Assembly: GCA_016782425.1 (NCBI GenBank)
Contig: JADHYN010000009.1
Span: 1 to 41,353 of the forward strand
Direction of reading: 5' to 3'
Source: Candidatus Omnitrophota bacterium
GTDB lineage: Bacteria > Omnitrophota > Gorgyraeia > JABMRN01 > RBG-13-46-9
Length of the DNA: 41,353 nt
Positions 12,150 to 40,050 of this stretch are shown here, piece by piece. The position numbers and the translations under genes were made by a program. A model generated the notes under the pieces. It saw only the letters and a program-made list of their open reading frames with translations. It did no database searches and was not told where the DNA came from. Positions within the stretch are counted from its first letter, which is position 1; every line of letters starts with the position of its first letter.

Positions 12150-12202
12150 GTATTTTCGAATTTTCTTTGAATAAGAAAATTGTAATAGTTTTGTATCAGG
12201 GG

Positions 12203-13236: not shown

Positions 13237-13248
13237 GTTAGATCCCTC

Positions 13249-13286
13249 CATATATATAGACAACGGAAAGTGCGATTTTGCTGCAT
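13249..13286 (-). promoter_or_regulatory. 38-bp box upstream of the anti-sigma gene (copy B)
   Basis: Second copy of the box at 12112-12149, differing at two positions. It begins at the last base of the sigma-factor stop codon and ends right before the GGAGGG of the anti-sigma gene, filling the gap between the two. Confidence 0.6.
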
Positions 13287-19526: not shown

Positions 19527-19535
19527 GGAACGAAG

Positions 19536-19559
19536 GATACCACGCGCGGAAGCGTGTGG
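19536..19559 (+). promoter_or_regulatory. GATAC hairpin leader of mcsB
   Basis: GATAC is followed by the stem CCACGCGC (19540-19547), loop GGAA (19548-19551) and GCGTGTGG (19552-19559), including one G-T pair. AGGAGG begins at 19560, touching the stem. The same layout is found before tsaB and alr with different but complementary stem bases. Confidence 0.7.
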
Positions 19560-19576
19560 AGGAGGTTAAGGATAAC

Positions 19577-20626
19577 GTGAACCTGGAAGAACTGCTACAC
19601 AAAAAAAGCGAATGGCTAAAAGGGACGGGCCCGAAGTCCGATATAGTAATTTCAAGCAGGGTCCGGCTTGCCCGGAATATCGATAAATTTCCGTTTTTCA
19701 ACTGGGCTAAACCAAACCAAAAAGAAGGGATCCTGGCACTCGTAAAAGATGCTGCCTTAAAGAGTAAATTTTTGAAGAAAACCATGTTTTTACAAATGAA
19801 AGATCTATCGGAAATCGATAGGCAATTCCTTGTTGAAAGGCATCTTACTAGCCCGGAACACGTAATTGATCCCGAGTATAAAGCGGTTCTGATAGACGAC
19901 CGGGAAATCGCCAGTATCATGATTAACGAGGAAGACCATGTGAGGCTCCAGGTATTGCAATCCGGCTTTAACATAATAGAAGCCTGGCGCATGGCTGACG
20001 AAATCGACACTGACCTCGGGACAAGGCTTTCTTACGCGTTTTCTGACAGGTGGGGATATCTTACAGCGTGCCCTACGAACACGGGCACAGGGCTTAGAGC
20101 GTCTATAATGCTGCACATGCCGGCTCTTGTAATGACAAACCAGATCGGTAAGGTTTTTCAGGCAATATCGAAGCTGGGGCTTACAATGCGCGGCTTTTAC
20201 GGAGAAGGCACAGAAGCCATAGGTAATTTTTTTCAGATTTCAAACCAAGTTACGTTAGGCCGCAGTGAAAACGATTTAATAGACAAAATCGGTAGTATCG
20301 TAGATAAGCTTGTAGGGCGCGAAGAGTCAACGCGTAATATTCTCATGGCGAAAAACAAAGATGAAATATCCGACAAAATATGGCGCGCATACGGTACGTT
20401 AAAAAGCGCCCGCATCATTACAAGCTCCGAAACAATAAAGCTGCTTTCAATCATTCGATTAGGAGTGAATTTAAGCGTAGTGACCGGTATTGATGGAACT
20501 CAAATAAATGAGCTTTTCATGCTAACGCAACCGGCGCACCTACAGAAAATAGAGGGTAAGATTCTTAACCCGAACCAGAGGGACTACAAAAGAGCTGACA
20601 TTATAAGAGAAAAATTAAAGGGATAG
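19577..20626 (+). CDS. mcsB: Protein arginine kinase McsB
   Basis: McsB phosphorylates arginine residues, marking proteins for ClpCP degradation. The 349-residue product has the phosphagen-kinase pattern: SDIVISSRVRLARNIDKFPF, INEEDHVRLQ, the catalytic-cysteine loop TACPTNTGTGLRAS (Cys165), and GFYGEGTEAIGNFFQISNQV. I chose the GTG at 19577 because its product (MNLEELLHKKSEWLKGTGPK) aligns with known McsB N-termini; an in-frame GTG at 19556 lies inside the leader hairpin. AAGGA precedes it by four bases, with AGGAGG further upstream. clpC follows after a 190-bp palindrome-rich gap. Confidence 0.93.
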   Translation: MNLEELLHKKSEWLKGTGPKSDIVISSRVRLARNIDKFPFFNWAKPNQKEGILALVKDAALKSKFLKKTMFLQMKDLSEIDRQFLVERHLTSPEHVIDPEYKAVLIDDREIASIMINEEDHVRLQVLQSGFNIIEAWRMADEIDTDLGTRLSYAFSDRWGYLTACPTNTGTGLRASIMLHMPALVMTNQIGKVFQAISKLGLTMRGFYGEGTEAIGNFFQISNQVTLGRSENDLIDKIGSIVDKLVGREESTRNILMAKNKDEISDKIWRAYGTLKSARIITSSETIKLLSIIRLGVNLSVVTGIDGTQINELFMLTQPAHLQKIEGKILNPNQRDYKRADIIREKLKG

Positions 20627-20630
20627 ATGA

Positions 20631-20677
20631 GGACACGACTTATGTCAACCACGGTGGTTGACATAAGTCGTATGTCC
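20631..20677. repeat. Palindrome 1 of the mcsB-clpC gap
   Basis: ACGACTTATGTCAACCAC (20635-20652) and its exact complement (20654-20671) are separated by one base, forming a perfect 37-nt palindrome. Outer GGAC (20631-20634) and GTCC (20674-20677) extend it past a two-base bulge. It starts four bases after the mcsB stop. No run of T follows. Confidence 0.9.
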
Positions 20678-20683
20678 GAATTT

Positions 20684-20720
20684 ACCCAGCACCAATTTTG
20701 GTGCAAAATTAGTGCTGGGT
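20684..20720. repeat. Palindrome 2 of the mcsB-clpC gap (two alternative folds)
   Basis: Long fold: ACCCAGCAC/GTGCTGGGT (9 bp), a C-A mismatch, AATTTT/AAAATT (6 bp), loop GGTGC; 37 nt in all. An inner fold, GCACCAA (20689-20695) with TTGGTGC (20698-20704), uses the same bases and excludes the long one. Confidence 0.85.
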
Positions 20721-20756
20721 TCAATTCACACGTTCATGGAAGAAAATCATCGAAGA

Positions 20757-20792
20757 CACATTTATGAAAATCTATAGATTTTCATAAATGTG
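20757..20792. repeat. Palindrome 3 of the mcsB-clpC gap
   Basis: CACATTTATGAAAATCTA (20757-20774) is followed immediately by its exact complement (20775-20792): a perfect 36-nt palindrome. It ends 12 bases before the GGAGGG ribosome site of clpC. Confidence 0.9.
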
Positions 20793-20816
20793 GTGCTCAT
20801 TGAAGGAGGGTAAAAC

Positions 20817-23300
20817 ATGGCAATGTTCAATAGGTTTACAGAAAGAGCGCGCAAAGTCATTCTTCTAGCTAAAGAGGAAGCCAAGCGCTTCAACCACGAT
20901 TACATAGGCACCGAGCACATTCTCCTGGGCCTTGTTCGCGAGGGTGAAGGTGTTGCCGCCGCGGTTTTAGCAAGTCTTGGCTTAAGCGCGGATAAAATAA
21001 GATTTGAAGTGGAAAAACTTGTTCAACCCGGGCCGGCTACCATTGTATCCGGCGATATACCTTTTACACCGAAAGCGAAGAAGGTTATAGAGCTTGCGAT
21101 GGAAGAAGCCAGGAACCTGGGGCACAACTATATTGGCACAGAACACCTGCTTCTTGGCCTGATACGCGAAGGCGAAGGAGTTGCCTCCCAGGTTCTCATG
21201 AATCTAGGTTTGGAGCTGGATAAAGTCAGGATGGAGGTCATGAGCCTTCTCGGGTCTTCTATACCGGGTTATGGCCCATCGCCAAAAGCTAAAAAAGGAA
21301 AAACACCGGCGCTTGACGCTTTCGGAAGGGATCTTACTAAGTCTGCCAAGGAAAATAAACTTGACCCTGTTATAGGAAGACAGAAAGAGATAGAAAGAGT
21401 TATACAGATTTTATCACGCCGCACAAAAAATAATCCTGTTTTGCTGGGGGAAGCGGGTGTAGGAAAAACAGCTATCGTAGAAGGCCTTGCCCAGAAAATT
21501 ATTTCAAATGACATACCGGAGTTACTCAAAAACAAGAAGCTCATAATACTTGATCTCGCCCTCATGGTGGCCGGCACGAAATACAGGGGCCAGTTTGAGG
21601 AACGCATCAAGGCCATAATGGACGAGATAAAAAATTCTCCGGATGTAATCGTTTTTATAGACGAACTCCACACCTTAGTCGGCGCTGGCGGAGCAGAAGG
21701 AGCGATCGACGCTTCGAATATACTTAAGCCATCACTTTCGCGTGGCGACATTCAGTGCATAGGCGCGACGACTCTAAACGAATACAGGAAGCATATAGAA
21801 AAAGACGCTGCCCTTGAAAGAAGGTTTCAGACTATTATTGTAGAGCCAAACAGCGTGGAAGAGACATTTGAAATTCTTAAAGGCTTGAGAGACAGATACG
21901 AAGCCCATCATAAAGTGAAGTTTTCGGATGAGTCATTGGAAGCAGCGGCAAAACTTTCTGACAGATACGTGAGCGGTCGTTTCCTGCCCGATAAAGCCAT
22001 TGACTTAATGGATGAAGCCGGTTCGCGCGTGCGACTCTCCACGATGACTGTACCGCCTGACATAAAGGATATGGAAAACAAGATAAAAGACTTGAGAAGC
22101 CAGAAAGAAGACGCTGTAAGAGATCAGGATTTCGAAAAAGCGGCAAAATTCAGAGATGAAGAAAGGAAGGCGAAAGAATCCCTGGTGAAAACAAGAAAAC
22201 ACTGGAAAGAAGCCCAGGGAAAGAAAATTCTTACTGTTACCGAGGAAGATATAGCTACCATCGTGTCCAATTGGACGGGGGTACCTCTTTTTAAGCTTGA
22301 AGAAAAAGAGTCTACGAAGTTTTTAAAGATGCAGGAAGATCTAAATGCGCGAGTCATAGGACAGCCCGAAGGCATAGCCGCTATTGCAAGCGCTGTAAAA
22401 CGCTCACGCGCAGGCATAAAAGACCCAAAAAGGCCCATAGGCTCTTTTATCTTCATGGGGCCTACCGGTGTCGGCAAAACACTACTCGGCAGAAAGCTCG
22501 CCGAATTTATGTTCGGCGACGAAGACGCTGTTATCCAACTCGACATGTCTGAATACATGGAAAAATTCAATGTTTCCAGGCTTGTAGGGGCGCCTCCCGG
22601 CTATGTAGGCTATGAAGAGGGCGGGCAGCTGACCGAGAAGGTAAGGCGAAAGCCCTACTCGGTTGTGCTTCTGGATGAAATAGAAAAAGCCCACCCGGAT
22701 GTTTTTAACATACTTTTACAGGTTCTCGAAGAAGGGCGCCTCACGGATTCGTTCGGAAGAAAGGTCGATTTTAAAAATACAATTCTTATCATGACATCTA
22801 ATATCGGCGCAGAGATGCTGAAAAAACAGGGCTCCATAGGATTCCGTTCCGAAGAAAAAGAAGAAGAAACCTATAAGGACATGAAAGCAAGGCTTCTTGA
22901 AGCGGTTAAAAAGGTTTTTAAACCCGAATTCTTGAACAGGGTTGACGACATAATCGTATTCAGGAGCCTTACCAAGAACGATCTGCAAAAAATCGTGAAT
23001 ATTGAAATCCAGGAAGAGCAATCGCGGCTTAAGGACCAGGATGTAAAATTAGAACTTACAACCCAGGCCAAGGATTTCCTGATTGAGAAAGGATTTGATA
23101 AAACATTCGGTGCCCGCCCGCTAAAAAGAACTATTCAGCGATTTCTCGAAGATCCCCTGGCCGAAGAAATTATTGCCGGAAACTTCAAGGGCGGCGCAAG
23201 CATAAAAGTTATCGTAAAAGGCGATCATCTCGAATTTACGCGTGTTGCGAAACCCGTAAAAAAAGATAAAGAAAGCACTAAGCAAGAAAAGGTAAAATAA
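20817..23300 (+). CDS. clpC: ATP-dependent Clp protease ATP-binding subunit ClpC
   Basis: The 827-residue AAA+ unfoldase has two N-terminal Clp-N repeats (FTERARKVILLAKEEA and FTPKAKKVIELAMEEA, residues 1-150). The first ATPase has Walker A GEAGVGKTAIVEG and Walker B VIVFIDELHTLVG. A UVR-type middle domain follows (EDAVRDQDFEKAAKFRDEE), which separates ClpC from ClpB and ClpA, then a second ATPase (GPTGVGKTLLGRK). It would unfold arginine-phosphorylated proteins for ClpP. No clpP gene is in the window. GGAGGG precedes the ATG; the three palindromes lie upstream. Confidence 0.96.
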   Translation: MAMFNRFTERARKVILLAKEEAKRFNHDYIGTEHILLGLVREGEGVAAAVLASLGLSADKIRFEVEKLVQPGPATIVSGDIPFTPKAKKVIELAMEEARNLGHNYIGTEHLLLGLIREGEGVASQVLMNLGLELDKVRMEVMSLLGSSIPGYGPSPKAKKGKTPALDAFGRDLTKSAKENKLDPVIGRQKEIERVIQILSRRTKNNPVLLGEAGVGKTAIVEGLAQKIISNDIPELLKNKKLIILDLALMVAGTKYRGQFEERIKAIMDEIKNSPDVIVFIDELHTLVGAGGAEGAIDASNILKPSLSRGDIQCIGATTLNEYRKHIEKDAALERRFQTIIVEPNSVEETFEILKGLRDRYEAHHKVKFSDESLEAAAKLSDRYVSGRFLPDKAIDLMDEAGSRVRLSTMTVPPDIKDMENKIKDLRSQKEDAVRDQDFEKAAKFRDEERKAKESLVKTRKHWKEAQGKKILTVTEEDIATIVSNWTGVPLFKLEEKESTKFLKMQEDLNARVIGQPEGIAAIASAVKRSRAGIKDPKRPIGSFIFMGPTGVGKTLLGRKLAEFMFGDEDAVIQLDMSEYMEKFNVSRLVGAPPGYVGYEEGGQLTEKVRRKPYSVVLLDEIEKAHPDVFNILLQVLEEGRLTDSFGRKVDFKNTILIMTSNIGAEMLKKQGSIGFRSEEKEEETYKDMKARLLEAVKKVFKPEFLNRVDDIIVFRSLTKNDLQKIVNIEIQEEQSRLKDQDVKLELTTQAKDFLIEKGFDKTFGARPLKRTIQRFLEDPLAEEIIAGNFKGGASIKVIVKGDHLEFTRVAKPVKKDKESTKQEKVK

Positions 23301-23303
23301 TAG

Positions 23304-24401
23304 ATGAAACGTTCCAGATCCGCAAAGTTAAAAAAGATTTATCTTTTTAACATTCTTCTTCTCGCTTCTGTATTCCTTTTTCAGGAAGCGCGGACAAACT
23401 TTTTTGTTAGGGAACTAAGCCAGTGGCAGCTTCAAAGGCTCTTTCCCAGTGGCACCGTGGTTGAAATAGGGAATACAGGAGGAGGCATTTTTAGTAATCT
23501 CGTTTCAGAAAATGTAAGCATCCTACCCCCCGAAGAAATCTGGCAGGATGCGCCGGGCTTTAACATAAAGCGGGTGGAGGTGAATTACAGGTTATGGTAT
23601 CCGCTTTTTGGTAAAATGCCGACCCTGCCCGATGGCGAAAAGTCGCATTTGCATATTGTCCAGGGGAAAGGCTCGATAAGCGCGGAAATAGAAAGAGAAA
23701 ATAATAAATTTACGATAAACGGCAAAATCAATCACCTTAAAATTGACGGGATGGATTTTATAGGAGAATACAACGCTATCGTGGACACAGGTGATAAGGG
23801 TTCTGTGAATACCCGCATTGCCTTTAAAAACATAATCATAAATTACACCCCGTTCAGCAAGGATATAGAAGTCGCTACAAGCTATAATAGGATCAAAGGC
23901 CTTTTAGGCATAGATGATTTTAAAATCGGAAAAGAAATTAAAGGACATGGACATATTGGTTTAACCAGCCCATACGACATGTTTCTAAAATGGACAATTA
24001 CGGATCTAAATTTGAAAGATTATTTTCCGGCCGAAAACACTAACGAGAATATTTCCGGGAAAGTAAACGGAAATTTTATTTTAGAGGGCCCCGCCAGGGA
24101 AGCAGCGCTTCTCGCGCACATGGATGTCCAGGACGGAGATTTTAACGGTTTCACTTTTGATTCCGCCATGGGTGACCTAAAAGGAAAAGGCTCTTTAATT
24201 TCGATATTCGATTCGAGGATTCGTACGGAAGACACCCATTTCATATTCGGCGGTGAAATCGACCTTGCAAGGCTTAAAGATAATAACGTCTTTGACGGGC
24301 TTTTTCTTAAAGTAGACGAAAGCGCCTATGGCCAAAGCGGAGCCGGCGCTATCGGCAAATACCCGGATTCGACACGAAAAATTTTAATAGAAAAACTATA
24401 A
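23304..24401 (+). CDS. Exported AsmA/TamB-like protein of unknown function, next to mlaEFD
   Basis: The 365-residue product has an N-terminal hydrophobic helix (IYLFNILLLASVFLFQEA) and then a long beta-rich region with alternating motifs such as GKGSISAEIERENNKFTING, NISGKVNGNFILEGPAREAA and GDLKGKGSLISIFDSRIRTE. This style is typical of AsmA/TamB-like bridge proteins that move lipids between membranes, and the mlaEFD genes downstream fit such a role, but this is inference. It begins three bases after clpC and ends 13 bases before mlaE. No catalytic motif is seen. Confidence 0.55.
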   Translation: MKRSRSAKLKKIYLFNILLLASVFLFQEARTNFFVRELSQWQLQRLFPSGTVVEIGNTGGGIFSNLVSENVSILPPEEIWQDAPGFNIKRVEVNYRLWYPLFGKMPTLPDGEKSHLHIVQGKGSISAEIERENNKFTINGKINHLKIDGMDFIGEYNAIVDTGDKGSVNTRIAFKNIIINYTPFSKDIEVATSYNRIKGLLGIDDFKIGKEIKGHGHIGLTSPYDMFLKWTITDLNLKDYFPAENTNENISGKVNGNFILEGPAREAALLAHMDVQDGDFNGFTFDSAMGDLKGKGSLISIFDSRIRTEDTHFIFGGEIDLARLKDNNVFDGLFLKVDESAYGQSGAGAIGKYPDSTRKILIEKL

Positions 24402-24414
24402 CCGGAAAAGTATT

Positions 24415-25206
24415 ATGCTAAACATCAAAAAAGGAATCACAGTTTTAGGCACCAAGGCTGTGGAATTTATACGATATATCGGCGCCCTTACGATATTTGT
24501 GGGAGAAATAGGTTTTTGGCTTTTCCATCCGCCTTTCAGGTTTAAACAAGTTATGAGGCAAACTGCGAGAATGGGCGCCAGCAGCCTTCCTATAATATCG
24601 CTGATAAGCCTTTTTATTGGTATGGTTCTTGCCCTGCAGAGCGCCTATCAGATGCAAAAAATACAGGCGGAAATGTACATAGCCTCTCTTGTTGCCCTTT
24701 CCGTGATAAGAGAAATAGGGCCGGTTTTGACAGCGCTAATTGTTGCCGGAAGGTGCGGCGCAGCCATAACCGCGGAAATCGGAACGATGAAAGTAACCGA
24801 ACAGATAGACGCGCTGGAGACACTGGCGACTAACCCGATAAACTATCTTGTTGTTCCGAGATTTTGGGCACTTTTAATTTCACTTGTAACACTGACTATT
24901 TATGCGAACTTTATCGGAATGGTAGGCGGATATATTGTAGGAGTGGCAAAGCTTCGTATACCGCATCACATGTATATAAAAATGACTTTCGAACCCTTAA
25001 GACAGAGCGATATGCGAAACGGATTGTACAAAAGTTTTGTTTTTGCCATTGTAATATGCATTATAGCCTGTTTTGAGGGAATGCGCGCCAAGGAAGGAGC
25101 CGAGGGTGTCGGAAAGGCCACCACATCAAGCGTGGTAAGAAGCTTTGTGCTTATAATTGCCTGCGACTGCTTCCTTACGGCACTTATGTACTTTATCGGG
25201 AGATAG
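24415..25206 (+). CDS. mlaE: Phospholipid ABC transporter permease MlaE
   Basis: The 263-residue permease has about five membrane segments and the MlaE blocks LISLFIGMVLALQSAYQM, GPVLTALIVAGRCGAAITAE and IGTMKVTEQIDALETLATNP. With MlaF and MlaD it forms an inner-membrane complex that moves lipids between the inner and outer membrane. ATG start; four bases separate it from mlaF. The order permease-ATPase-MCE protein is the standard one. Confidence 0.95.
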   Translation: MLNIKKGITVLGTKAVEFIRYIGALTIFVGEIGFWLFHPPFRFKQVMRQTARMGASSLPIISLISLFIGMVLALQSAYQMQKIQAEMYIASLVALSVIREIGPVLTALIVAGRCGAAITAEIGTMKVTEQIDALETLATNPINYLVVPRFWALLISLVTLTIYANFIGMVGGYIVGVAKLRIPHHMYIKMTFEPLRQSDMRNGLYKSFVFAIVICIIACFEGMRAKEGAEGVGKATTSSVVRSFVLIIACDCFLTALMYFIGR

Positions 25207-25210
25207 TTTT

Positions 25211-25972
25211 ATGATAGAAATAATTAATTTATGCAAAAGTTTCAACGGACGAAAAGTACTAAACAACTTAAATCTCACCATAAATACGGGTGAGACAACT
25301 GTTATAATCGGAAGAAGCGGATGCGGCAAAAGTGTTCTTTTAAAGCACATAATAGGCCTATTGAAACCGGACGAAGGCCAGGTTTTTGTAGACGGAAAAG
25401 ACATAACAAGATTAAGCAATAAGGCTTTAAGCCAGATAAGAATGAAGTTTGGAATGCTCTTTCAGGGGTCCGCTTTATTTGATTCGCTTTCTGTATGGGA
25501 AAACGTGGCTTTTGGAATGTTGGAGCACGATAATAAAAAGAAAAGCGACGTTATAGGCAGGGTGAGAGAATGTCTTAGCATCGTGGATTTAAGAAACGTG
25601 GAAGAATTTAAACCGGCAGAACTTTCAGGAGGGATGCGTAAAAGAGTGGGTCTTGCCAGGGCCATATGCATGAAGCCCGAAATCATCCTTTACGATGAGC
25701 CAACTACGGGTGTTGACCCGATAACAGGAGACGCCGTAAACGACCTTATCAGGAACCTTCATGATAAATTGAAAGTTACCGCTCTGGCTGTCACTCATGA
25801 CATGACAAGCGCTTATAAAATAGCCGATAAAATAGCGATGCTTTATGACGGAAAAATTATTACCGTAGGGACTCCGGACGAAATAAAAAATACAAGCGAC
25901 CCTGTTGTAAAACAATTTATTAGCGGAGAAGCAGAAGGGCCGATTACCAGAGGGGGGGAAGATCATGGCTGA
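25211..25972 (+). CDS. mlaF: Phospholipid ABC transporter ATPase MlaF
   Basis: The 253-residue ATPase has Walker A GRSGCGKSV, Q-loop MLFQGSALFDSLSVWENVAF, signature LSGGMRKRVGLARAI, Walker B IILYDEPTTGVDP and VTHDM. The FDSLSVWENVAF segment is characteristic of MlaF. I chose the ATG at 25211 (MIEIINLCKSFNGRKVLNNL); the longer frame from 25157 runs inside mlaE. It overlaps mlaD by eight bases. Confidence 0.95.
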   Translation: MIEIINLCKSFNGRKVLNNLNLTINTGETTVIIGRSGCGKSVLLKHIIGLLKPDEGQVFVDGKDITRLSNKALSQIRMKFGMLFQGSALFDSLSVWENVAFGMLEHDNKKKSDVIGRVRECLSIVDLRNVEEFKPAELSGGMRKRVGLARAICMKPEIILYDEPTTGVDPITGDAVNDLIRNLHDKLKVTALAVTHDMTSAYKIADKIAMLYDGKIITVGTPDEIKNTSDPVVKQFISGEAEGPITRGGEDHG

Positions 25973-26585
25973 ATCAGATAACAAGGTTTTTGAATTAAAG
26001 GTCGGGATTTTTATAGCTGTCGGAATACTTATTTTCTTCATAGTAGCCCTTTCCATAGGAGACGTGTATCTGGTGAGGAAGGGATACCATATAAACGTTC
26101 TTTTTAATTTTGCAAACGGTATCTCAGAGAGCGCTCCTGTGAGGGTGGCAGGCGTTGACGTGGGCCAGATTGACAAGATTGATATATTTTTCGACGAAGA
26201 AGAAAAAAAGACAAAGGTGAGGCTCCTGGCATGGATAAAGGACGAAAAAATAAAAATTACCAAAGATTCAATGGCTGTTATTAACACGCTCGGACTCTTG
26301 GGAGAGAAGTACCTGGAAGTTTTTCCGGGTAAGGATACGGAGCATTTTCTTGTTTCCGGAGAGGAAATAATAGGCCACGATCCTATCCCCACCGAGCTTA
26401 TTGCGGAAAAGGTGAATAATATTGCCGATTCTGTCAATATCATTATGACACGGCTTGAGGAAGGTGAAGGTACCATCGGAAAACTATTGGTCGAAGAAAA
26501 AGTTTATGATGACCTGGAGGCATTTGTGGAAGACATTAAGAAACACCCGTGGAAACTTCTGCGCAAGTCAAAGGGAAGTAAATAA
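25965..26585 (+). CDS. mlaD: MCE-domain lipid-binding protein MlaD
   Basis: The 206-residue protein has one N-terminal membrane helix (VGIFIAVGILIFFIVALSIG) and an MCE domain with VLFNFANGISESAPVRVAGV, DVGQIDKIDI, and TLGLLGEKYLEVFPG. The C-terminal part (VNNIADSVNIIMTRLEEGEG) is helical. MlaD rings bind phospholipid on the periplasmic side of the MlaFE transporter. No other Mla components (MlaA, B, C) are in the window. Confidence 0.93.
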   Translation: MAESDNKVFELKVGIFIAVGILIFFIVALSIGDVYLVRKGYHINVLFNFANGISESAPVRVAGVDVGQIDKIDIFFDEEEKKTKVRLLAWIKDEKIKITKDSMAVINTLGLLGEKYLEVFPGKDTEHFLVSGEEIIGHDPIPTELIAEKVNNIADSVNIIMTRLEEGEGTIGKLLVEEKVYDDLEAFVEDIKKHPWKLLRKSKGSK

Positions 26586-26586
26586 G

Positions 26587-26606
26587 CCTGCCTACCGGCA
26601 GGCAGG
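26587..26606. repeat. 20-bp near-palindrome, second copy of the CCTGCC repeat
   Basis: CCTGCCTACC followed by GGCAGGCAGG; one base differs from the copy at 8521-8540. It starts one base after the mlaD stop, and its last bases form part of the ribosome site (CAGGGAG) for the gene at 26617. Confidence 0.78.
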
Positions 26607-26616
26607 GAGCAAGAAA

Positions 26617-28787: not shown

Positions 28788-28803
28788 AATAATAGGGGGA
28801 AAC

Positions 28804-32584: not shown

Positions 32585-33347
32585 AATTTCGTATTTTTTA
32601 ACAGGCGGCTTGAAATTCAAGATAAGCGAATACGTAATTGTCGAACAGGGCAGGGGCCTGGAATACGGGCAGATTGTGTCCGAGCCGGAAACGGTCCTCG
32701 ATACCGAAATCGAACGTCCCCTTCGCAAAATCATACGAAAAACAAATCCGTGGGACCATCACCAGATAGAGAAGAATAAGAAGAAAACAAAAGAGCTTAT
32801 TCAAATTTGCGGCAAAAAAATATCCGAACATAAACTTCCCATGAAACTGGTAGAGGCGGAATATTCTTTTGACCGTTCTAAGATCATATTTTATTTTACC
32901 GCAGAAGAACGTGTTGATTTCAGGAATCTCGTAAGAGACCTGGCCAATATTTTCAAGGCAAGAATTGAGCTCAAGCAAATTGGTGTCCGGGATGAAGCGA
33001 AGCTTATGGGCGGATACGGTCCTTGCGGAAAAGAGTTGTGCTGCGTGAAGTTTTTGAAGGATTTTGAACCGGTAACCATAAGAATGGCAAAGGACCAGAA
33101 CCTGCCTTTAAACCCTACGAAGATATCAGGCCTATGCGGAAGGCTTATGTGTTGCCTGAGTTACGAAAACCAAACCTATAAGGAGTTCATGAAAGGGCTG
33201 CCTAAAATAGGCCAGGAAATAAAAACGGAAAAAGGCAAGGGTAAGGTCGTGGGCATAAACCCGCTTAAAAGAAGCGCTATGGTAGAGATAGGAGAAGGTA
33301 AGCGCATAGAGGTTAAATTCGAGAAACATAGGCCAAATAAGCCGTAA
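32544..33347 (+). CDS. ricT: PSP1-domain protein RicT (YaaT)
   Basis: The 267-residue product has a PSP1 domain and the conserved cysteine segment GGYGPCGKELCCVKFL followed by GLCGRLMCCLSYENQTY. In Bacillus RicT (YaaT), RicA and RicF form an iron-sulphur complex that assists RNase Y in mRNA processing. RicA and RicF genes are not in this window. The AAGGAG before the ATG at 32544 lies within the holB end. tmk-holB-ricT is a conserved order. A C-terminal extension (GQEIKTEKGKGKVVGINPLK) resembles a small KOW-like domain. Confidence 0.92.
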   Translation: MHEVVQVRLREAGKISYFLTGGLKFKISEYVIVEQGRGLEYGQIVSEPETVLDTEIERPLRKIIRKTNPWDHHQIEKNKKKTKELIQICGKKISEHKLPMKLVEAEYSFDRSKIIFYFTAEERVDFRNLVRDLANIFKARIELKQIGVRDEAKLMGGYGPCGKELCCVKFLKDFEPVTIRMAKDQNLPLNPTKISGLCGRLMCCLSYENQTYKEFMKGLPKIGQEIKTEKGKGKVVGINPLKRSAMVEIGEGKRIEVKFEKHRPNKP

Positions 33348-33373
33348 GCTTTAAGCCATAAGCCTTAAACAAG

Positions 33374-34939
33374 ATGAAAAAAAGAAAAACATACATAACA
33401 ACACCGCTATATTATGTAAACGCTAAACCGCATATAGGGCATTCCTATACCCAGATAATATGTGATGCTGTTAGTCGCTTCCGCAAGCAATGCGGCGAAG
33501 AAGTTTTTTTCATGACGGGGACTGATGAGCACGGCGAAAAGATAGAAAAGGCCACCTTGGAAGCGGGTTTTGAAAAGGGCCAAGAAAAAAAGTTTGTAGA
33601 CACTATCGTACCGCATTTTAAGGAACTATGGAAAAAGCTTGATATAGAATACGATCGCTTTATACGCACCACAGACGGGGTGCATGAAGAGACCGTAAAA
33701 AGGGTTTTATCGATATTATATGAGAAAGGGAAAATATATAAAAAGCTTTATAAGGGGTGGTTTTGCACTCCATGTGAAATGTTTTGGTCGCATGTGCATG
33801 CCCCGGACGGGATATGCCCGGACTGTAAAAGAAATTTAGATAAGCTTGACGAAGAAAACTACTTTTTTAAAACTTCCGAATATCAAAACGTATTAATCAA
33901 GCATATAAAAGAAACCAATGGCTTTATTATTCCCGATATAAGAAAAAATGAAGTCTTAAGTTTTCTCGAAAAGAATGAGCTCCAGGATCTTTGTATATCC
34001 CGGCCAAAAACACGACTCTCATGGGGCATTGAACTTCCTTTCGACAAAAATTTTGTAACTTATGTATGGTTTGACGCCCTTTTAAATTACATATCCGGGA
34101 TCGGATATCTGGATGACAGAAAGCGCTTTGATTCGCTCTGGCCGCACGCTATCAATGTGATAGGAAAGGATATATTGCGTCACCACGCGATTTATTGGCC
34201 GATTATGCTTTTGGCCATTGATGAAAAGCCTCCCAAATGCGTTTGCACGCATGGCTGGTGGATGACTGAAGGCGAGAAAATGTCCAAGTCTAAGGGAAAC
34301 ATAGTCGACCCACTAAAGATTATAGCTAAATACGGGGTCGATGCGTTCAGGTATTATCTTTTGAGCGCCGTTCCATTTGGTTATGACGGGACCTTTTCAG
34401 AGAAGCTCTTCATAGAGAGATACAATAATGACCTCGCAAATGATTTAGGAAACCTTTTAAACAGAACCCTTACGATGCTTGATAACTATTTTGAGAAAAT
34501 TATTCCGGAGGTCAAACTTCCTTGTGACAAAGATATGAAAAGCGCCATAAAGAACCTTCCGGGAGAATTCGGCGCTTTCTTTACGCATTTTAATTCATCC
34601 TTCGCGCTTAAAGCAATATGGAGCCTGGTAAAAAAAGCGAATAAACATATAGAAGATAAAGCGCCATGGAAACTCGCGAAAGAAAATAAAGAAGAACTGC
34701 GCGCAGTTATGTACGAATTGATACAAGCGATAGGGATTATAGCGGTACTACTCTATTCTTCCATGCCGGATACCGCGCGTAAAATGTGGAAGCAGCTTGG
34801 CATGAAATCAGACATAGCTTCTGTGAATATACGCATGCCAAATAGGTCAGAAAAAGAAGAAAAATTTTGGGGAATTATACCTTCGGGAACAAAAACCGCT
34901 AAAGGCAAGCCCCTTTTTCCGCGAATTCTTTTGAAATGA
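33374..34939 (+). CDS. metG: Methionyl-tRNA synthetase
   Basis: The 521-residue class I enzyme charges tRNA(Met). It has ITTPLYYVNAKPHIGHSYTQ (HIGH motif), a zinc knuckle with two cysteine pairs (WFCTPCEMFW and GICPDCKRN), FDALLNYISGIGY and the KMSKS loop GEKMSKSKGNIVDP. The C-terminal dimerisation/tRNA-binding domain of longer MetG proteins is missing; it ends soon after the helical anticodon domain. It overlaps tatD by four bases, matching the Bacillus metS-yabD order. Confidence 0.96.
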   Translation: MKKRKTYITTPLYYVNAKPHIGHSYTQIICDAVSRFRKQCGEEVFFMTGTDEHGEKIEKATLEAGFEKGQEKKFVDTIVPHFKELWKKLDIEYDRFIRTTDGVHEETVKRVLSILYEKGKIYKKLYKGWFCTPCEMFWSHVHAPDGICPDCKRNLDKLDEENYFFKTSEYQNVLIKHIKETNGFIIPDIRKNEVLSFLEKNELQDLCISRPKTRLSWGIELPFDKNFVTYVWFDALLNYISGIGYLDDRKRFDSLWPHAINVIGKDILRHHAIYWPIMLLAIDEKPPKCVCTHGWWMTEGEKMSKSKGNIVDPLKIIAKYGVDAFRYYLLSAVPFGYDGTFSEKLFIERYNNDLANDLGNLLNRTLTMLDNYFEKIIPEVKLPCDKDMKSAIKNLPGEFGAFFTHFNSSFALKAIWSLVKKANKHIEDKAPWKLAKENKEELRAVMYELIQAIGIIAVLLYSSMPDTARKMWKQLGMKSDIASVNIRMPNRSEKEEKFWGIIPSGTKTAKGKPLFPRILLK

Positions 34940-35703
34940 TTATAGATACGCACTGCCATCTCGATTTCGACCAGTTCCGCGCTGACAGAAACTCTGTTAT
35001 AGAGCGGGCGGAAAAAGCAGGCGTTAGATATTTCATAAACGTAGGCTCAAGCCTTAAAGGTTCACGGAAAAGCATAGAGCTTGCTTCAGAACATGATAGT
35101 GTTTTTGCTTCGGTGGGCATTCATCCCGACGACGCCGACGGCATAACGGAAGAAACCTTTACTGAAGTCGAGAGGCTTCTGGAAAATAAAAAAGTTATAG
35201 CAATCGGCGAGGTCGGACTTGATTTTTTTAAAAAACGCTCTACGCCGGATAAACAAAAAACGCTATTCACAAGATTTATAGATATCTCTAAAAAACGTAA
35301 CCTTCCTTTGATTATCCATAACCGCGACGCCGCGCGCGATACGGTAGATATTTTAAAAAAGAACGGCACTCACCCGATTTTGGGCGTCATGCATTGCTTC
35401 TCCGGAGATGAGAAGCTTCTCGGCGAAGTCCTGGAGATGGGTTTACATGTTTCGTTTACGTGCAACCTGACCTTTAAAAATGCCAAACGCCTAAGAGAGA
35501 TCGCCAAAGGCGTTCCGCTTGACCGGCTTCTTCTGGAGACAGACGCGCCGTTTTTGGCACCCCAAGCATATAGAGGGGAAAGAAACGAACCCGCGTATAT
35601 AACCGAACTTCGTGACGTGCTATCGGAGATTTTGAACGTATCAAAAGAGGAAATAGAAAAAGTAACTACGGAAAACGCTAAGAAACTATTTAAAATACCA
35701 TAA
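34936..35703 (+). CDS. tatD: TatD-family metal-dependent hydrolase/DNase
   Basis: The 255-residue TIM-barrel protein has DTHCHLDFDQF (first metal His pair), AIGEVGLDFFKK, LIIHNRDAARDT, GVMHCFSGDEKL and LLLETDAPFLAP, the full TatD set. TatD proteins are magnesium-dependent nucleases linked to DNA repair or quality control. It starts inside the metG stop. TYRGERNEPAYI-like sequence near residue 210 is also typical. Confidence 0.94.
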   Translation: MIIDTHCHLDFDQFRADRNSVIERAEKAGVRYFINVGSSLKGSRKSIELASEHDSVFASVGIHPDDADGITEETFTEVERLLENKKVIAIGEVGLDFFKKRSTPDKQKTLFTRFIDISKKRNLPLIIHNRDAARDTVDILKKNGTHPILGVMHCFSGDEKLLGEVLEMGLHVSFTCNLTFKNAKRLREIAKGVPLDRLLLETDAPFLAPQAYRGERNEPAYITELRDVLSEILNVSKEEIEKVTTENAKKLFKIP

Positions 35704-35715
35704 GAGGGAGCATTG

Positions 35716-36834
35716 ATGATAAAAGATTTCGTTAAAAGAAACCGGATATACATAACACTCTTTTTTCTCATCGTAACTATAAACGTTGCGCCTATGTTTA
35801 TGAAGGAAGAAAAAGTCCGGGATAAAGTCAAAACTGAAGTCGGAGTAGAAGAAGAAAAAGATGAAAGCCCCACTCTCTTTATGGAGTTTGACGAAGCGCA
35901 GGACCGCAGCAAAAAAATAGAAAATATATTAAAAAATAATATCCCGCTTTATCTTTTTTACATATGCTGTAATCTCCTCATCGTATTTATGTTTTTCTCG
36001 GGTCTTGCGCTCGATGGGTATTTCCTCTTTAACAAATTAAAGAAAAAAGACGTTTTACAAAAAACCGACGGTACAGATCCTCCGAGATGGAAGATAGGCG
36101 ACGTTTTTAAGATAGTTATTTTAGCATTTACGTTTGGCTATCTATTTTTTATGGCACTTAGCTTCTGTCTGGGGGCCCTACAAAGCGTAATGAAAACGAA
36201 ATTTACATTTTTCAAAAATAATAATATTAGAATGATTCTTGATACAGTCGTACTGGACTTTATCGCGCTCTTGATTATCCTAAAGTTTATGCGCAAAGTT
36301 TACAAAAAGAAATTTGCAAGCCTCGGTTTTGTAAAGAAAAACATCAAAAAAAATATCCTCTACGGTATTTGCGGTTACGTGGCGATCGTACCGGTAATAC
36401 TTATTCTCGGTATTTTAGTGTATATTCTTCTTAATATCTTACAAATCAAGCCCCCTCCGCAACCGATAGTCGGACTTTTTCTCGCTGAGAAAAATATCGC
36501 ACTCATATTCACTTCCAGCATAATTGCGGCTATCTTTGGGCCGGTGATAGAAGAAATATTTTTTAGAGGAGTCATGTATAACGCCGTAAAAAGGAAGTTC
36601 GGCGTTTTTGCGGGTATTTTTATAACAAGTATCCTTTTTTCTTTTTTACATACGCATGCTATGACCTACTTTTTGGTAGGTTTTATACCAATTATGATAT
36701 TGGGCATGACGCTTGCCTATTTGTATGAAAAAACAGGTAGCCTTATCCCGTCGATAACACTTCACATAATGAATAACGTTGGGAGTGTTTTTATGGTGTT
36801 TTTATTCAGATATTTTAATAACCTGGTTAAGTAA
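35716..36834 (+). CDS. CPBP-family intramembrane protease
   Basis: The 372-residue product has about eight membrane segments. The CAAX-protease/bacteriocin-processing motifs are in the C-terminal half: VIEEIFFRGVMYNAV (EExxxR), SILFSFLHTHAM (FxxxH) and SITLHIMNN (HxxxN). The N-terminal 125 residues hold one early membrane helix and a charged loop (KVKTEVGVEEEKDESP), not part of the core. Substrates are unknown. I chose the ATG at 35716, after GAGGGAG; a TTG at 35713 is adjacent. Confidence 0.88.
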   Translation: MIKDFVKRNRIYITLFFLIVTINVAPMFMKEEKVRDKVKTEVGVEEEKDESPTLFMEFDEAQDRSKKIENILKNNIPLYLFYICCNLLIVFMFFSGLALDGYFLFNKLKKKDVLQKTDGTDPPRWKIGDVFKIVILAFTFGYLFFMALSFCLGALQSVMKTKFTFFKNNNIRMILDTVVLDFIALLIILKFMRKVYKKKFASLGFVKKNIKKNILYGICGYVAIVPVILILGILVYILLNILQIKPPPQPIVGLFLAEKNIALIFTSSIIAAIFGPVIEEIFFRGVMYNAVKRKFGVFAGIFITSILFSFLHTHAMTYFLVGFIPIMILGMTLAYLYEKTGSLIPSITLHIMNNVGSVFMVFLFRYFNNLVK

Positions 36835-36851
36835 GAGGGTGGTTTAATAAA

Positions 36852-37883
36852 ATGCCGGTGCCAACAATAGAATGGAAACAAAATAAGGTAAAAATAATCG
36901 ACCAGAGCGCCCTTCCCGCTAAAATGCGTTTTATCTATTGCGCCTCGGCGCAGTCGATTTGGAATATTATAAAATACATGAAAATACGCGGGGCACCGGC
37001 CATCGGTATTGCGGCCGCGTTCGGAGTATATCTAGGTGTTAGAAATTCAACCAACAAAAATTTCGCCAAAGACTTAAGCAAAACTATAAATTATTTAGCA
37101 ACCTCAAGGCCAACAGCAGTAAATCTTTTTTGGGCGCTTGAGAGGATGGGTAAAATTGCGCGCAAGCATAAAGGTGAGCCCGTTACAAAGACAAAGAAAA
37201 TCTTATTAAAAGAAGCGAAAAACCTTCTTAATGAGGATAAAGCAATCTGCAGAAAAATGGGTAAGTTCGGAAGCGCGCTTATAAAAAGTAAGGATAATAT
37301 CCTCACGCATTGTAATGCAGGCGGGCTTGCTACTGCTGATTATGGTACGGCGCTAGGTGTAATTTTTGCGGCCCACAGCCAGAAAAAGAAAATAAAAGTT
37401 TATGCTGACGAGACACGGCCCGTTTTACAGGGTGCGCGCCTTACGGCGTGGGAGCTTATGCGCGAAGGCGTAGATGCGACTCTTATCTGCGATAACACCG
37501 CCGCAAGTTTAATGGCAAGCGGCAAGATTGACAAGATAATCGTCGGAGCCGATAGGATAGCCGGAAACGGCGACACAGCGAATAAAATCGGGACATATAA
37601 CCTGGCTGTTTTAGCCCATCATCACAAAGTGCCTTTTTATGTCGTCGCGCCCACCTCAACCATTGACACGAAGATAAAAACAGGTAAAGCCATACCCATC
37701 GAAGAACGCAATCCCGATGAGGTAAGAAAAATAAAAAACATTTATGTATCCCCTAGAAATGTAAAAGTTTTTAACCCTGCTTTTGACGTGACGCCGAATC
37801 GCTTTATAACAGCGATTATTACAGAAAAAGGTATTTTACGAAAACCTTTTTTACGCAGCATAAGGAAAGCATGCGCGAACTAG
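36852..37883 (+). CDS. mtnA: Methylthioribose-1-phosphate isomerase
   Basis: MtnA converts methylthioribose 1-phosphate to the ribulose form in methionine salvage. The 343-residue protein has MKIRGAPAIGIAAAFGVYLG, the catalytic-cysteine loop THCNAGGLATADYG, DETRPVLQGARLTAWEL and the aspartate in VGADRIAGNGDTANKIGTY. Related eIF2B-like sugar-phosphate isomerases share the fold, but these motifs fit MtnA. No other methionine-salvage gene is nearby. It overlaps thiL by 13 bases. Confidence 0.92.
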   Translation: MPVPTIEWKQNKVKIIDQSALPAKMRFIYCASAQSIWNIIKYMKIRGAPAIGIAAAFGVYLGVRNSTNKNFAKDLSKTINYLATSRPTAVNLFWALERMGKIARKHKGEPVTKTKKILLKEAKNLLNEDKAICRKMGKFGSALIKSKDNILTHCNAGGLATADYGTALGVIFAAHSQKKKIKVYADETRPVLQGARLTAWELMREGVDATLICDNTAASLMASGKIDKIIVGADRIAGNGDTANKIGTYNLAVLAHHHKVPFYVVAPTSTIDTKIKTGKAIPIEERNPDEVRKIKNIYVSPRNVKVFNPAFDVTPNRFITAIITEKGILRKPFLRSIRKACAN

Positions 37884-38761
37884 AATTTATTCGATATATT
37901 ACCCGCAGATTCAAAATAAAAAGGCCGGTCGTAAAGGGCATAGGCGACGATTGCGCCGTTATCAAGTATAAAAAGAATAAATTTTTGCTTTTCACATGCG
38001 ACATGATTATAGAAGGCACGCATTTTACGAAGAAAACTCACGCATTCGAAATCGGCTGGAAGGCCATGGCGGTCAATATAAGCGATATCGCTTCAATGGG
38101 CGGTATTCCGAAATACGCATTAGTAGCAGCCGCGGTTCCCCGGGGGAAAAATATAAGATTCTTAAAAGAAATTATTCGGGGAATAGAAAAAATTTCGAAA
38201 AAATTTAATATATCTATTATAGGCGGCGATACAAATAATTCCGAAAAAATAGTTTTAAACGTTACATTAATAGGCGAGGCCGAGAAAAAACACCTTACAA
38301 AAAGAGACGGGGCTAAGCCCGGAGACTTAATATTTGTAACAGGGGCGCTGGGCGAGGGAAAATCCAAACACCTTAATTTTTTACCACGCCTCCGGGAATC
38401 AAGAATATTAGTTAAAAACTTTAAAATAAACTCTATGATAGATTTATCAGATGGCTTAGCCATGGATTTAAATAGGCTCGCCCGGGCAAGCAATGTCGGG
38501 GCGTGCGTTTACAAGAGCTTGATACCGCTTTCAAAAAAATCAGAGCCACTCGAGAAAAGTATTTTTGCAGGTGAAGATTTCGAACTTCTTTTCACAGCCT
38601 CTATCGCGGAATCAAAAAAGATAATGAAGCGCATGGGCAAGAAAGAAGATCTCCCCATAACGCTTATAGGCGAGATCGTTAAAAGGCCCCTAGGCGTCGG
38701 GCTCATCGAGGATAACGGAAAACTAACGCCGCTTAAACCGAAAGGATACGCGCATTTTTGA
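37871..38761 (+). CDS. thiL: Thiamine-monophosphate kinase
   Basis: ThiL makes thiamine diphosphate from thiamine monophosphate. The 296-residue product has GIGDDCAVI, the metal-binding Asp in TCDMIIEGTHF, AVNISDIASMGGIPKYAL, IIGGDTN, MIDLSDGLAMDLNRLA and AGEDFELLF, all expected of the family. It starts inside mtnA. Its stop codon overlaps the TTG start of tsaE (TTGA), so translation is coupled. Confidence 0.93.
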   Translation: MRELEFIRYITRRFKIKRPVVKGIGDDCAVIKYKKNKFLLFTCDMIIEGTHFTKKTHAFEIGWKAMAVNISDIASMGGIPKYALVAAAVPRGKNIRFLKEIIRGIEKISKKFNISIIGGDTNNSEKIVLNVTLIGEAEKKHLTKRDGAKPGDLIFVTGALGEGKSKHLNFLPRLRESRILVKNFKINSMIDLSDGLAMDLNRLARASNVGACVYKSLIPLSKKSEPLEKSIFAGEDFELLFTASIAESKKIMKRMGKKEDLPITLIGEIVKRPLGVGLIEDNGKLTPLKPKGYAHF

Positions 38762-39186
38762 AGACGCAATATATAACAAAGAGCCCGAAAGAAACCTTTG
38801 ATTTAGGGGCTAAATTCGGAAAGGGCTTGAAACCCGGGACAGTCGTAGCGCTCATAGGAGAGCTTGGTACCGGGAAAACACTCTTTACAAAAGGAATTGC
38901 CAAGGCGCTGGGCGTTAAAGAATATAAATATGTGAATAGCCCTTCCTTTGTTATTGTGAAAGAATATAAGTCAAAAAAAGCGCCACTTTATCATTTTGAT
39001 TTTTACAGATTAAAACCCATAAGCGGCTTAGATACAATAGGTTATGAAGAATATTTTTACTCCGGCGGCATAAGCGTCGTAGAATGGGCGGATAGAGCGA
39101 TGGATCTTCTGCCGGATAAATATATTTGCCTGAAATTCAGGCATCTCGGGAAAGATAAGAGAAAAATAACGGTAAGCAAAGAATAA
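38758..39186 (+). CDS. tsaE: tRNA t6A biosynthesis ATPase TsaE
   Basis: TsaE is the ATPase that works with TsaB and TsaD in making the threonylcarbamoyl modification of A37 in ANN-decoding tRNAs. The 142-residue product has Walker A GELGTGKTLFTKG, SPSFVIVKEY, YHFDFYRL and VVEWADRA. The start is TTG, overlapping the thiL stop. tsaB follows after a 100-bp gap filled by two hairpins. tsaD is not in the window. Confidence 0.93.
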   Translation: MKTQYITKSPKETFDLGAKFGKGLKPGTVVALIGELGTGKTLFTKGIAKALGVKEYKYVNSPSFVIVKEYKSKKAPLYHFDFYRLKPISGLDTIGYEEYFYSGGISVVEWADRAMDLLPDKYICLKFRHLGKDKRKITVSKE

Positions 39187-39236
39187 CCCCATGCTTCCCC
39201 TCCTACGCCAAGGCTTCGGAGGGCAGGCGCATGGGG
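39187..39236. repeat. 50-nt hairpin repeat between tsaE and tsaB
   Basis: CCCCATGC (39187-39194) pairs with GCATGGGG (39229-39236). Inside, CCCTCC (39198-39203) pairs with GGAGGG (39218-39223) and GCC with GGC. It begins at the first base after the tsaE stop. The copy at 39948-39997 shares the inner sequence (GCCAAGGC, CGGAGGGCAGGC). Confidence 0.75.
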
Positions 39237-39254
39237 AATGCGCGACCAACGAAA

Positions 39255-39278
39255 GATACCACACACGGAAGTGTGTGG
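39255..39278 (+). promoter_or_regulatory. GATAC hairpin leader of tsaB
   Basis: GATAC, then stem CCACACAC (39259-39266), loop GGAA (39267-39270) and GTGTGTGG (39271-39278); all eight pairs are standard. AGGA follows at 39279 and the ATG at 39287. The preceding AACGAA is shared with the mcsB copy. Confidence 0.7.
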
Positions 39279-39286
39279 AGGATGAT

Positions 39287-40015
39287 ATGAAACTGCTAGC
39301 TATAGATACCTCTACTAAATATTTAAGTGTAGCTATAACAGAAAACGATAGTATTCTTGCTCGTTCCCACGAAAAAGAAGAGCTAAGACATTTCGACTTT
39401 CTTATGCCCACAATTGATAAACTCCTCAAAAAATGCCGCTTGAAATTAAAAAACATCGATGCCATAGCTTTAAGCATAGGCCCGGGATCTTTTACGGGTT
39501 TACGGATAGGGGTCGCAACGTGCAAGGGAATAAATATGGCCCTGGGGATACCCATAGTAGCCCTACCTACCCTTCGGGTCATAGCCGAGAATTTCTCAGA
39601 TGAAAAAGATTACATGCTTTGCCCGCTTTTAGACGCAAAAAAGAAGAAAGTTTACGCCTGTTTATTCGACGGCAAGAGAGGCTTAAGGAGGCTTACCGAT
39701 TACATGCTGCTCGATATAGACAGCCTCCTTAAAAAAATAAAAAAGCCAACGCTTGTTTTCGGGGACGCTGTTAAGCTATATAAAGATTCGTTAGAAAAAA
39801 ATCCTTATGTTAACATTTCGACGAAAAACTGGTATCCGCGAGCGGAGGTCGTAGCAGCGCTCGGGCTTACAAAGGCTAAACAAAGAAAATTCACGAATCC
39901 CGATAGGCTGGCGCCGATGTACCTGCATTCAAAATATTGCCAGATAACCCCACGCTTACCATCCTTCGCCAAGGCTACGGAGGGCAGGCGTGCGGGGAAT
40001 ACACGAAAACACTAA
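39287..40015 (+). CDS. tsaB: tRNA t6A biosynthesis protein TsaB
   Basis: TsaB is the scaffold partner of TsaD in t6A synthesis. The 242-residue product has the ASKHA-type start MKLLAIDTSTKYLSVAITEN, then IDAIALSIGPGSFTGLRIGV, and GINMALGIPIVALPTLRVIA. I chose the ATG at 39287 after GGAGG; the frame open further upstream reads only through the repeat hairpins. The last 20 or so residues (from PRLPSFAKATEGRRAG) are encoded by the second 50-nt hairpin repeat, so the C-terminus appears to have been lengthened or replaced by it. Confidence 0.92.
   Translation: MKLLAIDTSTKYLSVAITENDSILARSHEKEELRHFDFLMPTIDKLLKKCRLKLKNIDAIALSIGPGSFTGLRIGVATCKGINMALGIPIVALPTLRVIAENFSDEKDYMLCPLLDAKKKKVYACLFDGKRGLRRLTDYMLLDIDSLLKKIKKPTLVFGDAVKLYKDSLEKNPYVNISTKNWYPRAEVVAALGLTKAKQRKFTNPDRLAPMYLHSKYCQITPRLPSFAKATEGRRAGNTRKH
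39948..39997. repeat. 50-nt hairpin repeat inside the tsaB 3' end
   Basis: CCCCACGC (39948-39955) pairs with GCGTGCGGGG (39988-39997) with one bulged C. The centre CCTTCGCCAAGGC then CGGAGGGCAGGC resembles the copy at 39187-39236. In frame it codes for PSFAKATEGRRAG, a peptide typical of such repeats when translated. Confidence 0.75.
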
Positions 40016-40016
40016 A

Positions 40017-40040
40017 GATACTACAGGCGTAAGCCTGTAG
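40017..40040 (+). promoter_or_regulatory. GATAC hairpin leader of alr
   Basis: GATAC, then stem CTACAGGC (40021-40028), loop GTAA (40029-40032) and GCCTGTAG (40033-40040); all eight pairs are standard. AGGAG follows at 40041 and the ATG at 40051. Stem bases differ from the mcsB and tsaB copies at several positions but remain paired. Confidence 0.7.
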
Positions 40041-40050
40041 AGGAGTGAAA

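Follow-up and report, generated by a model that had tools for sequence, protein, structure and literature searches.

A stretch of 41,353 nucleotides from the genome of a Candidatus Omnitrophota bacterium (contig JADHYN010000009.1; hereafter the window) carries three copies of a short palindromic element, situated shortly before the start codons of the genes mcsB, tsaB and alr. The element is probably a non-autonomous miniature mobile repeat of the Omnitrophota that resembles the REPINs (doublets of REP, repetitive extragenic palindromic, sequences), is kin to the 3' third of an IS200/IS605-type transposase gene (tnpA) and carries its own Shine-Dalgarno sequence. It is an interspersed repeat, apparently mobile, and no regulator of the genes downstream.

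Structure of the element in the window

An earlier note on this DNA had described each copy as GATAC followed by an 8-bp stem, a tetraloop and a Shine-Dalgarno sequence, with stem pairs changing together among the copies. All three were recovered, with tetraloops GGAA (mcsB), GGAA (tsaB) and GTAA (alr), and with AGGAGG, AGGA and AGGAG, respectively, directly after the stem. The hairpin and loop were as described, but the stem begins with the C of GATAC, giving a layout of GATA plus 8 bp. The compensatory changes were also read correctly (pair 2 is C-G or T-A, pair 6 C-G or G-C, pair 7 G-C or A-T), pair 5 of the mcsB copy being G-T. The combination of GATA, 8 bp, tetraloop and AGG occurs at exactly three sites in the window, compared to none in 200 dinucleotide shuffles; the three copies are far beyond chance.

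This hairpin is only part of the full element, which consists of a hairpin A, a spacer and a hairpin B, the latter being the one first described. Hairpin A has the layout ACCCC-stem-TTMC-stem-GGGGAATG and hairpin B the layout GATA-stem-GNRA-stem-AGGA. Previously overlooked, hairpin A is present upstream of the tsaB and alr copies, which have in common a 63-nt repeat carrying it (CCCC...GGGGAATG, 84% alike), while the mcsB copy is a hairpin B alone.

The features in this paragraph are all on the plus strand. The mcsB copy follows a mcsA-like gene for a UvrB/UvrC-motif protein (18963..19526), whose stop codon (19524-19526) is 13 nt before hairpin B. Its GATA box (19536..19539), which with the next base makes the GATAC that matches C-terminal codons of IS200-type TnpA elsewhere, precedes hairpin B (19540..19559; CCACGCGC-GGAA-GCGTGTGG), and the match to covariance models R1 and R2 covers 19503-19567. 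The adjoining AGGAGG (19560..19565) is the Shine-Dalgarno sequence of mcsB, which encodes an ATP:guanido phosphotransferase (PF00217) from a GTG start (19577..20626). At tsaB, the TAA stop codon (39184-39186) of tsaE (38758..39186) adjoins hairpin A (39187..39236; CCCCATGC-TTCC-insert-GCGCATGGGG), the insert being a 28-nt palindromic repeat directly after TTCC (39199..39226). Hairpin B (39259..39278; CCACACAC-GGAA-GTGTGTGG) and the adjoining AGGA (39279..39282), the Shine-Dalgarno sequence of tsaB, lead into that gene (39287..40015). Hairpin A of the alr copy (39948..39997; CCCCACGC-TTAC-insert-GCGTGCGGGG), again with a 28-nt palindromic insert, here directly after TTAC (39960..39987), starts within the 3' end of tsaB, whose frame crosses it and ends just before hairpin B (40021..40040; CTACAGGC-GTAA-GCCTGTAG). 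AGGAG (40041..40045) adjoins this last stem and serves as the Shine-Dalgarno sequence of alr, the alanine racemase gene (40051..41178).

In every case the 28-nt palindromic repeat, of the CCTCCTACGCCAAGGCTTCGGAGGGCAG type, interrupts the hairpin A loop immediately after TTMC, and it occupies the same position in G000:C13 (L170) and G001:C5 (L171). At pyrF of genome G001 another palindrome lies at the mirror position in hairpin B, before GTAA. The window also holds a repeated palindrome, CCTGCCTGCCGGCAGGCAGG, at 8518-8543 and 26584-26609, a version of which forms an insert in A or B loops of genomes G036, G132 and G210.

Copy number and phylogenetic spread

The earlier note had proposed a covariance-model search for further copies lying upstream of start codons and having covarying stems, and such copies were found both in the same genome and in related ones. 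Searches employed a pattern with one mismatch allowed together with the covariance models R1 and R2. In the window's own genome the models give 8-9 matches representing eight loci: mcsB, tsaB, alr, asd, argJ, tyrS, ahcY and rpmE. Hairpin A precedes B in most of the other copies found. B without A is seen in the mcsB copy, at rpmE (G000:C7) and at the sis gene of G002, and A alone in the argJ copy of G001; genome G089 has several copies of A only and two of B only. The assembly G000 contains two asd genes (G000:C11:1846-2211 and G000:C44:77156-77524; 98% and 82% to the query), which may reflect a paralogue or a foreign contig in the metagenome-assembled genome.

Within the window's family strong matches are present in four of the eight genomes, with none in G003, a congener of G004. 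Across the phylum, 20 of 384 sampled Omnitrophota genomes, scattered across many families, have matches at E<=1e-5, a figure that is a floor because few candidates were scored per genome. Under fuller scoring, G089 yielded 50 matches, reduced to about 34 loci once matches on both strands were merged. Copies per genome range from 1 to about 34. The element was not found in plasmids, phages or IMG/VR viral contigs.

Placement between genes

The surroundings of 91 copies were assessed through an open reading frame (ORF) overlap rule and by eye; this rule is approximate and leaves a few rows doubtful, but the orientation bias does not depend on them. In 88 of the 91 copies (p about 3e-25 against 50:50) the element is in the sense orientation, followed by the start of a gene on its own strand. 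The exceptions are one inverted copy (G347:C97) and two in G089 without a nearby gene. The stop codon of the upstream gene usually falls within about 10 nt of hairpin A, and the element therefore fills the junction from stop to start. An ORF of at least 60 amino acids begins within 48 nt in 66 of the 68 copies bearing hairpin B (median distance from the stem 11 nt). The AGG adjoining the stem is the best Shine-Dalgarno sequence available in 39 of these 68.

The genes downstream are unrelated core genes; the first three had already been assigned to unrelated pathways. Recurrence of the same gene in different genomes (argG, ahcY and the gamma subunit of a 2-oxoacid oxidoreductase, three times each) was considered and dismissed as a signal, since some 100 draws from several hundred core genes are estimated to give similar numbers. 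A leader peptide or other conserved frame through the element, starting at the ATG in GGGGAATG, was likewise discarded, the spacer shifting the frame between copies.

Such near-absolute sense placement could arise were the element target-specific, its transposase inserting only beside a Shine-Dalgarno sequence on one strand so that target choice fixes the orientation. Insertion by IS200/IS605 transposases is strand- and sequence-specific, and at alr the sequence following hairpin B, AGGAGTGAAAATG, resembles that of the empty site, AGGTGAAAATATG. Nevertheless, the AGAGG edge is also found at the tnpA locus of G089 (see below), where hairpin B precedes an apparently convergent gene and no clear start lies downstream; for that reason AGAGG is assigned to the element. 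Furthermore, no common target is seen in the 5' flanks of the G089 copies, and in some copies the Shine-Dalgarno sequence lies farther downstream. We consider insertion of this kind a rather unlikely cause of the orientation.

Comparison of orthologous junctions reveals some that lack the element. In the relatives' stretches L029 and L030 tsaB passes straight into alr, with an ATGA-type overlap or a very short gap and no element. A conserved leader of alr was rejected as an explanation, other Omnitrophota lacking the element upstream of that gene. In G003 and G004 the alr, tsaB and sis junctions are empty; that of pyrF is filled in G001 and empty in G000, and a uracil-DNA-glycosylase-like gene is preceded by the element in G004 and by none in G003. 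Copies within one genome have common spacers.

Other palindromes are found at some of these positions. The orthologous argJ, asd, mcsB and ahcY junctions of G003 and G004 (L264, L278, L272, L287, L290, L292) contain unrelated palindromes, such as CCCGTTAGACCTCC..., and several palindromic repeat families therefore collect at operon junctions of this type. Upstream of a cooC-like gene the orthologous site is filled in two genera, in G132:C18 (L224) and G210:C65 (L362), with hairpin B replaced by a different palindrome in G210.

Covariation and predicted folding

Conservation of pairing was measured in 43 copies. As many as 97.8% of cells are paired, two-sided changes occur in 10 of the 16 pairs, and the covariation score exceeds those of all 500 shuffles and of all slid controls. 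With few exceptions the loop of hairpin B is a GNRA tetraloop, and it is usually the reverse complement of the A loop (TTAC with GTAA, TTCC with GGAA). Base 3 of the A loop covaries with base 2 of the B loop (28 A-T, 16 C-G and 3 exceptions among combinations of A or C with T or G; p=1.6e-9, uncorrected for the relatedness of copies). In G089 the inner arms of A and B are inverted copies. Covariation of the stems is expected for RNA hairpins and equally for DNA palindromes recognised as single-stranded hairpins. Selection specific to RNA was sought in an excess of G-U pairs over A-C mismatches, and was set aside since the excess is weak (26 against 14, p=0.08).

In partition-function folds, hairpins A and B both form in nearly every copy examined. 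In the majority of the 11 copies scored, the AGG(A) core of the Shine-Dalgarno sequence is mostly unpaired; the mcsB copy fell outside this automatic scoring and its predicted fold places the core AGG outside the stem. These predictions bear on the suggestion that folding limits access of the ribosome, which is borne out only for the G residues within the stem and not for the mostly unpaired core. A translational regulator, whether an RNA thermometer or a riboswitch-like leader, would hide the Shine-Dalgarno sequence in the stem, and the covarying stems and the position of that sequence directly beside them are features it would have. With the core exposed, with unrelated genes downstream, without conservation of the element at orthologous genes and without a match in Rfam, such a regulator is highly improbable. 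The absence of a conserved gene set, together with a Shine-Dalgarno sequence that is not sequestered, leaves thermometer and riboswitch unsupported. The first of these had been offered as an option in the earlier note; another of its options, a general translational control element, may apply as a by-product.

A different role for the RNA constitutes the main rival to a mobile repeat. The element might be a functional intercistronic RNA, mobile in origin and kept for its function, in which the message upstream has its 3' end shielded by hairpin A, and hairpin B either protects translation of the message downstream or sets its level, perhaps with a nuclease cut between the two. Strict sense orientation, strong compensatory changes and a B loop that is nearly always GNRA would all be in keeping with such a function, as would the occurrence of A alone after stop codons and B alone before start codons, and the filling of the orthologous cooC site in G132 and G210 by elements whose B hairpins differ. 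On the other hand, sites differ from one genome to the next, close relatives have them empty, the genes are unrelated, most of the phylum lacks the element and the G-U comparison above provides no clear sign that pairing is maintained in RNA rather than DNA. On balance we regard maintenance for such a function as unlikely, while taking it seriously.

Kinship with an IS200-type transposase gene

When the genomes bearing the element were searched for Y1 transposases, two tnpA genes were found to overlap it. In G089 tnpA is intact; hairpin A falls within its reading frame and hairpin B overlaps its stop codon. In G196 the gene has one internal stop, lies between a gene end and gltX, and has a copy of A and B in frame. 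A third tnpA, intact, was found in G389 from a further sample, with A positioned likewise and B again spanning the stop codon; this gene is directly upstream of fabF, whose Shine-Dalgarno sequence is the AGAGGA of hairpin B. Within tnpA, hairpin A encodes TPHLRVGN or TPRFRVGN.

The G089 protein scores 90 bits against NF033573 (cut-off 55) and 97 bits against PF01797, and aligns end to end with the TnpA of ISDra2. Residues H48, H50 and Y114, corresponding to the HUH motif and catalytic Tyr, are invariant in the alignment. Judged from its sequence, this is a bona fide IS200/IS605 transposase. The TPHLRVGN segment aligns without insertion to ISDra2 TnpA and to relatives, having the usual length, for which reason hairpin A looks native to tnpA. 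Other IS200-type relatives in the phylum (26-32% identity to the G089 protein among those aligned, 27-33% in the search) are without hairpin A in the gene; in several of them hairpins lie beyond the gene, at the customary positions.

In several G089 copies the spacer matches tnpA on both sides of a gap: codons ..YNPKH follow A, codons SQRIL precede B, and about 75 bp between them are missing. The best agree at 14-15 of 18 positions to the left of the gap and at 10-12 of 13 to the right, and one copy retains a slightly longer stretch. On the strength of these matches, GATAC corresponds to C-terminal codons of tnpA and AGAGG to the right edge of the gene.

This TnpA was not found in viral contigs, and in plasmids only the general IS200 family was seen, at <60% identity. 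Y1 transposase genes, many of them of a length like that of RAYTs (REP-associated tyrosine transposases), are present in 19 of the 20 genomes tested. This, and the REPIN-like arrangement (PMC3116915) of two short, mutually inverted palindromes separated by a spacer and showing compensatory changes, might suggest a classical family of REPs, bacterial interspersed mosaic elements (BIMEs) or REPINs moved by a RAYT. Yet among the 30 Y1 loci examined, and the two in the window's genome, only the IS200-type tnpA genes (G089 and G196) carry the element; no GTAG tag marks the foot of the palindrome, copies are few and their orientation is strict. A classical RAYT-driven family is accordingly improbable. 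The RAYTs of the window's own genome were discarded as mobilisers, there being no hairpins near them. A 215-residue Y1-transposase-like ORF at L137 (G000:C35, around 63.5 kb) is flanked on both sides by a different palindrome, TTGGCGACCGCGTCGGTCGCCAA, and is likely to belong to a separate REP/RAYT pair.

A proposed origin and its implications

A mobile hairpin carrying a ribosome site, one of the options raised at the outset, is thus the favoured one: the element is copied within genomes, is absent from the junctions of relatives, is related to an IS200 tnpA and in most copies has the Shine-Dalgarno sequence as its right edge. The miniature would be the 3' third of an IS200/IS605-type tnpA less the stretch between its two hairpins, the parent gene having had A in its reading frame, B normally over its stop codon and AGAGG as its right edge. 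We infer that the A-B unit is mobilised by this TnpA or by a relative since lost, which would recognise the two hairpins in single-stranded form; RAYTs are thought to mobilise REPINs in much the same way. Insertions would persist at operon junctions, where the harm is least. In a sense copy the right edge, AGAGGA, would serve the next gene as Shine-Dalgarno sequence, so that the copy could part translationally coupled genes without silencing the second, while inverted copies would be lost. Orientation would then be set by selection and not by target choice. A role of the RNA in protecting message ends or insulating translation may have been added later.

Several observations weigh against this proposal. 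This TnpA is present in only two of the first 384 genomes, with G389 coming from the further sample, as against 20 with the element; most copies would therefore be relics or have been moved by something else. Upstream of tnpA, no left-end hairpin common to the gene and the miniature copies was found, a departure from the miniature elements classically derived from IS200. Some G089 spacers match tnpA poorly, and copies elsewhere with shorter spacers match it only in the hairpins, GGGGAATG and GATAC. The putative descent of the element from tnpA is argued from conservation of the coding sequence, the empty sites compared belong to different genera or species rather than to near-identical strains, and A-alone and B-alone copies occur.

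More tentatively, a clade of IS200-type transposases may have evolved REPIN-like units from two hairpins in its own coding sequence and specialised them for operon junctions, as a portable stop-to-start spacer with an exposed Shine-Dalgarno sequence, insulated by two hairpins; the odds are somewhat against this. If it is true, such a spacer could spread through essential operons cheaply and may re-tune downstream translation.

On the proposed origin in general, the element illustrates how mobile DNA can inhabit dense, essential operons, by bringing the signal that the host junction requires. It ties a repeat family to a visible source gene through hairpins inside the transposase frame, an unusual arrangement among IS200/IS605 and REP systems, and provides a testable case of selfish DNA able to reset the ribosome-binding sites of many core genes in an uncultured and little-studied phylum.

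Miniature palindromic elements linked to Y1 transposases are already known. Three features are new here: the hairpins would originate in the coding sequence of an IS200 tnpA, their loops form a complementary pair, and the copies, which bring their own Shine-Dalgarno sequence, lie almost exclusively in the sense orientation. A literature search found no paper linking Omnitrophota to REP elements and no described element with this combination of junction and Shine-Dalgarno anatomy.

Other repeats are present in the window. A leader (TGCAGCAAAATCGC...TATATATATGGAGGG, minus strand) is repeated at 12106-12167 and 13243-13304, before several genes, and a stretch resembling it is found in L136 near 1020-1070 and upstream of the G089 tnpA (L311). 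A direct repeat of 101 nt occupies positions 8920-9020 and 9861-9961; its two units are 75% alike and lie 941 nt apart.

Comparison with known systems

The view that the element belongs to no named RNA class holds for Rfam, which gave no match in the window at the gathering score (only a sub-threshold ClpQY_promoter, 13.9 bits against 42); as a DNA element, however, it resembles REPINs and the miniature inverted-repeat transposable elements (MITEs) derived from IS200/IS605. With RNA thermometers and other sequesterers of the Shine-Dalgarno sequence it has in common a hairpin directly beside that sequence, but here the core is unpaired and the distribution is not gene-specific. The attC sites of integrons also lie between the stop and start of successive genes, in one orientation, and form imperfect hairpins. 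Comparison of copy ends alone distinguishes the element, which runs ACCCC...GAGG rather than RYYYAAC...GTTRRRY, and its neighbours are core operon genes, not cassettes.

Like the element, GTAG- and CGTC-tagged REPs (PMC3733652) are short palindromes, often between unidirectional genes, in some cases intragenic, and plausibly transcribed; the element differs in being untagged and in its far tighter coupling to start codons and orientation. In Borrelia, the IS605B stem-loops originate in non-coding sequence flanking the transposase gene and are located downstream of lipoprotein stop codons (PMC2775950). These and MITEs are similar in that IS200/IS605-type ends are left beside genes, the Borrelia stem-loops being transcribed. 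Unlike the Borrelia stem-loops, the hairpins described here derive from coding sequence, in the 3' third of tnpA, and span operon junctions, where they supply the next Shine-Dalgarno sequence. Both hairpins occur with an IS200-type tnpA, but A is in coding sequence and no common left end was found upstream.

The closest parallel is with REPINs and their RAYT transposases (Bertels and Rainey 2011, PMC3116915; Nunvar et al. 2010, PMC2817692), which likewise have two short inverted palindromes and a spacer, compensatory changes, an intergenic location and a Y1 (HUH) transposase that does not necessarily move itself. The element lacks the GTAG tag, its A hairpin being preceded by variable bases and starting with ACCCC and its B hairpin being preceded by GATA, and its hairpins lie inside and at the end of an IS200-type tnpA ORF, not in the flanks. 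REPINs usually number >100 copies per genome, compared to 1 to about 34 here. Finally, while REPINs are reported to be randomly distributed across extragenic space, the Omnitrophota element occupies stop-to-start junctions in a one-sided sense orientation, with a Shine-Dalgarno sequence at its edge.

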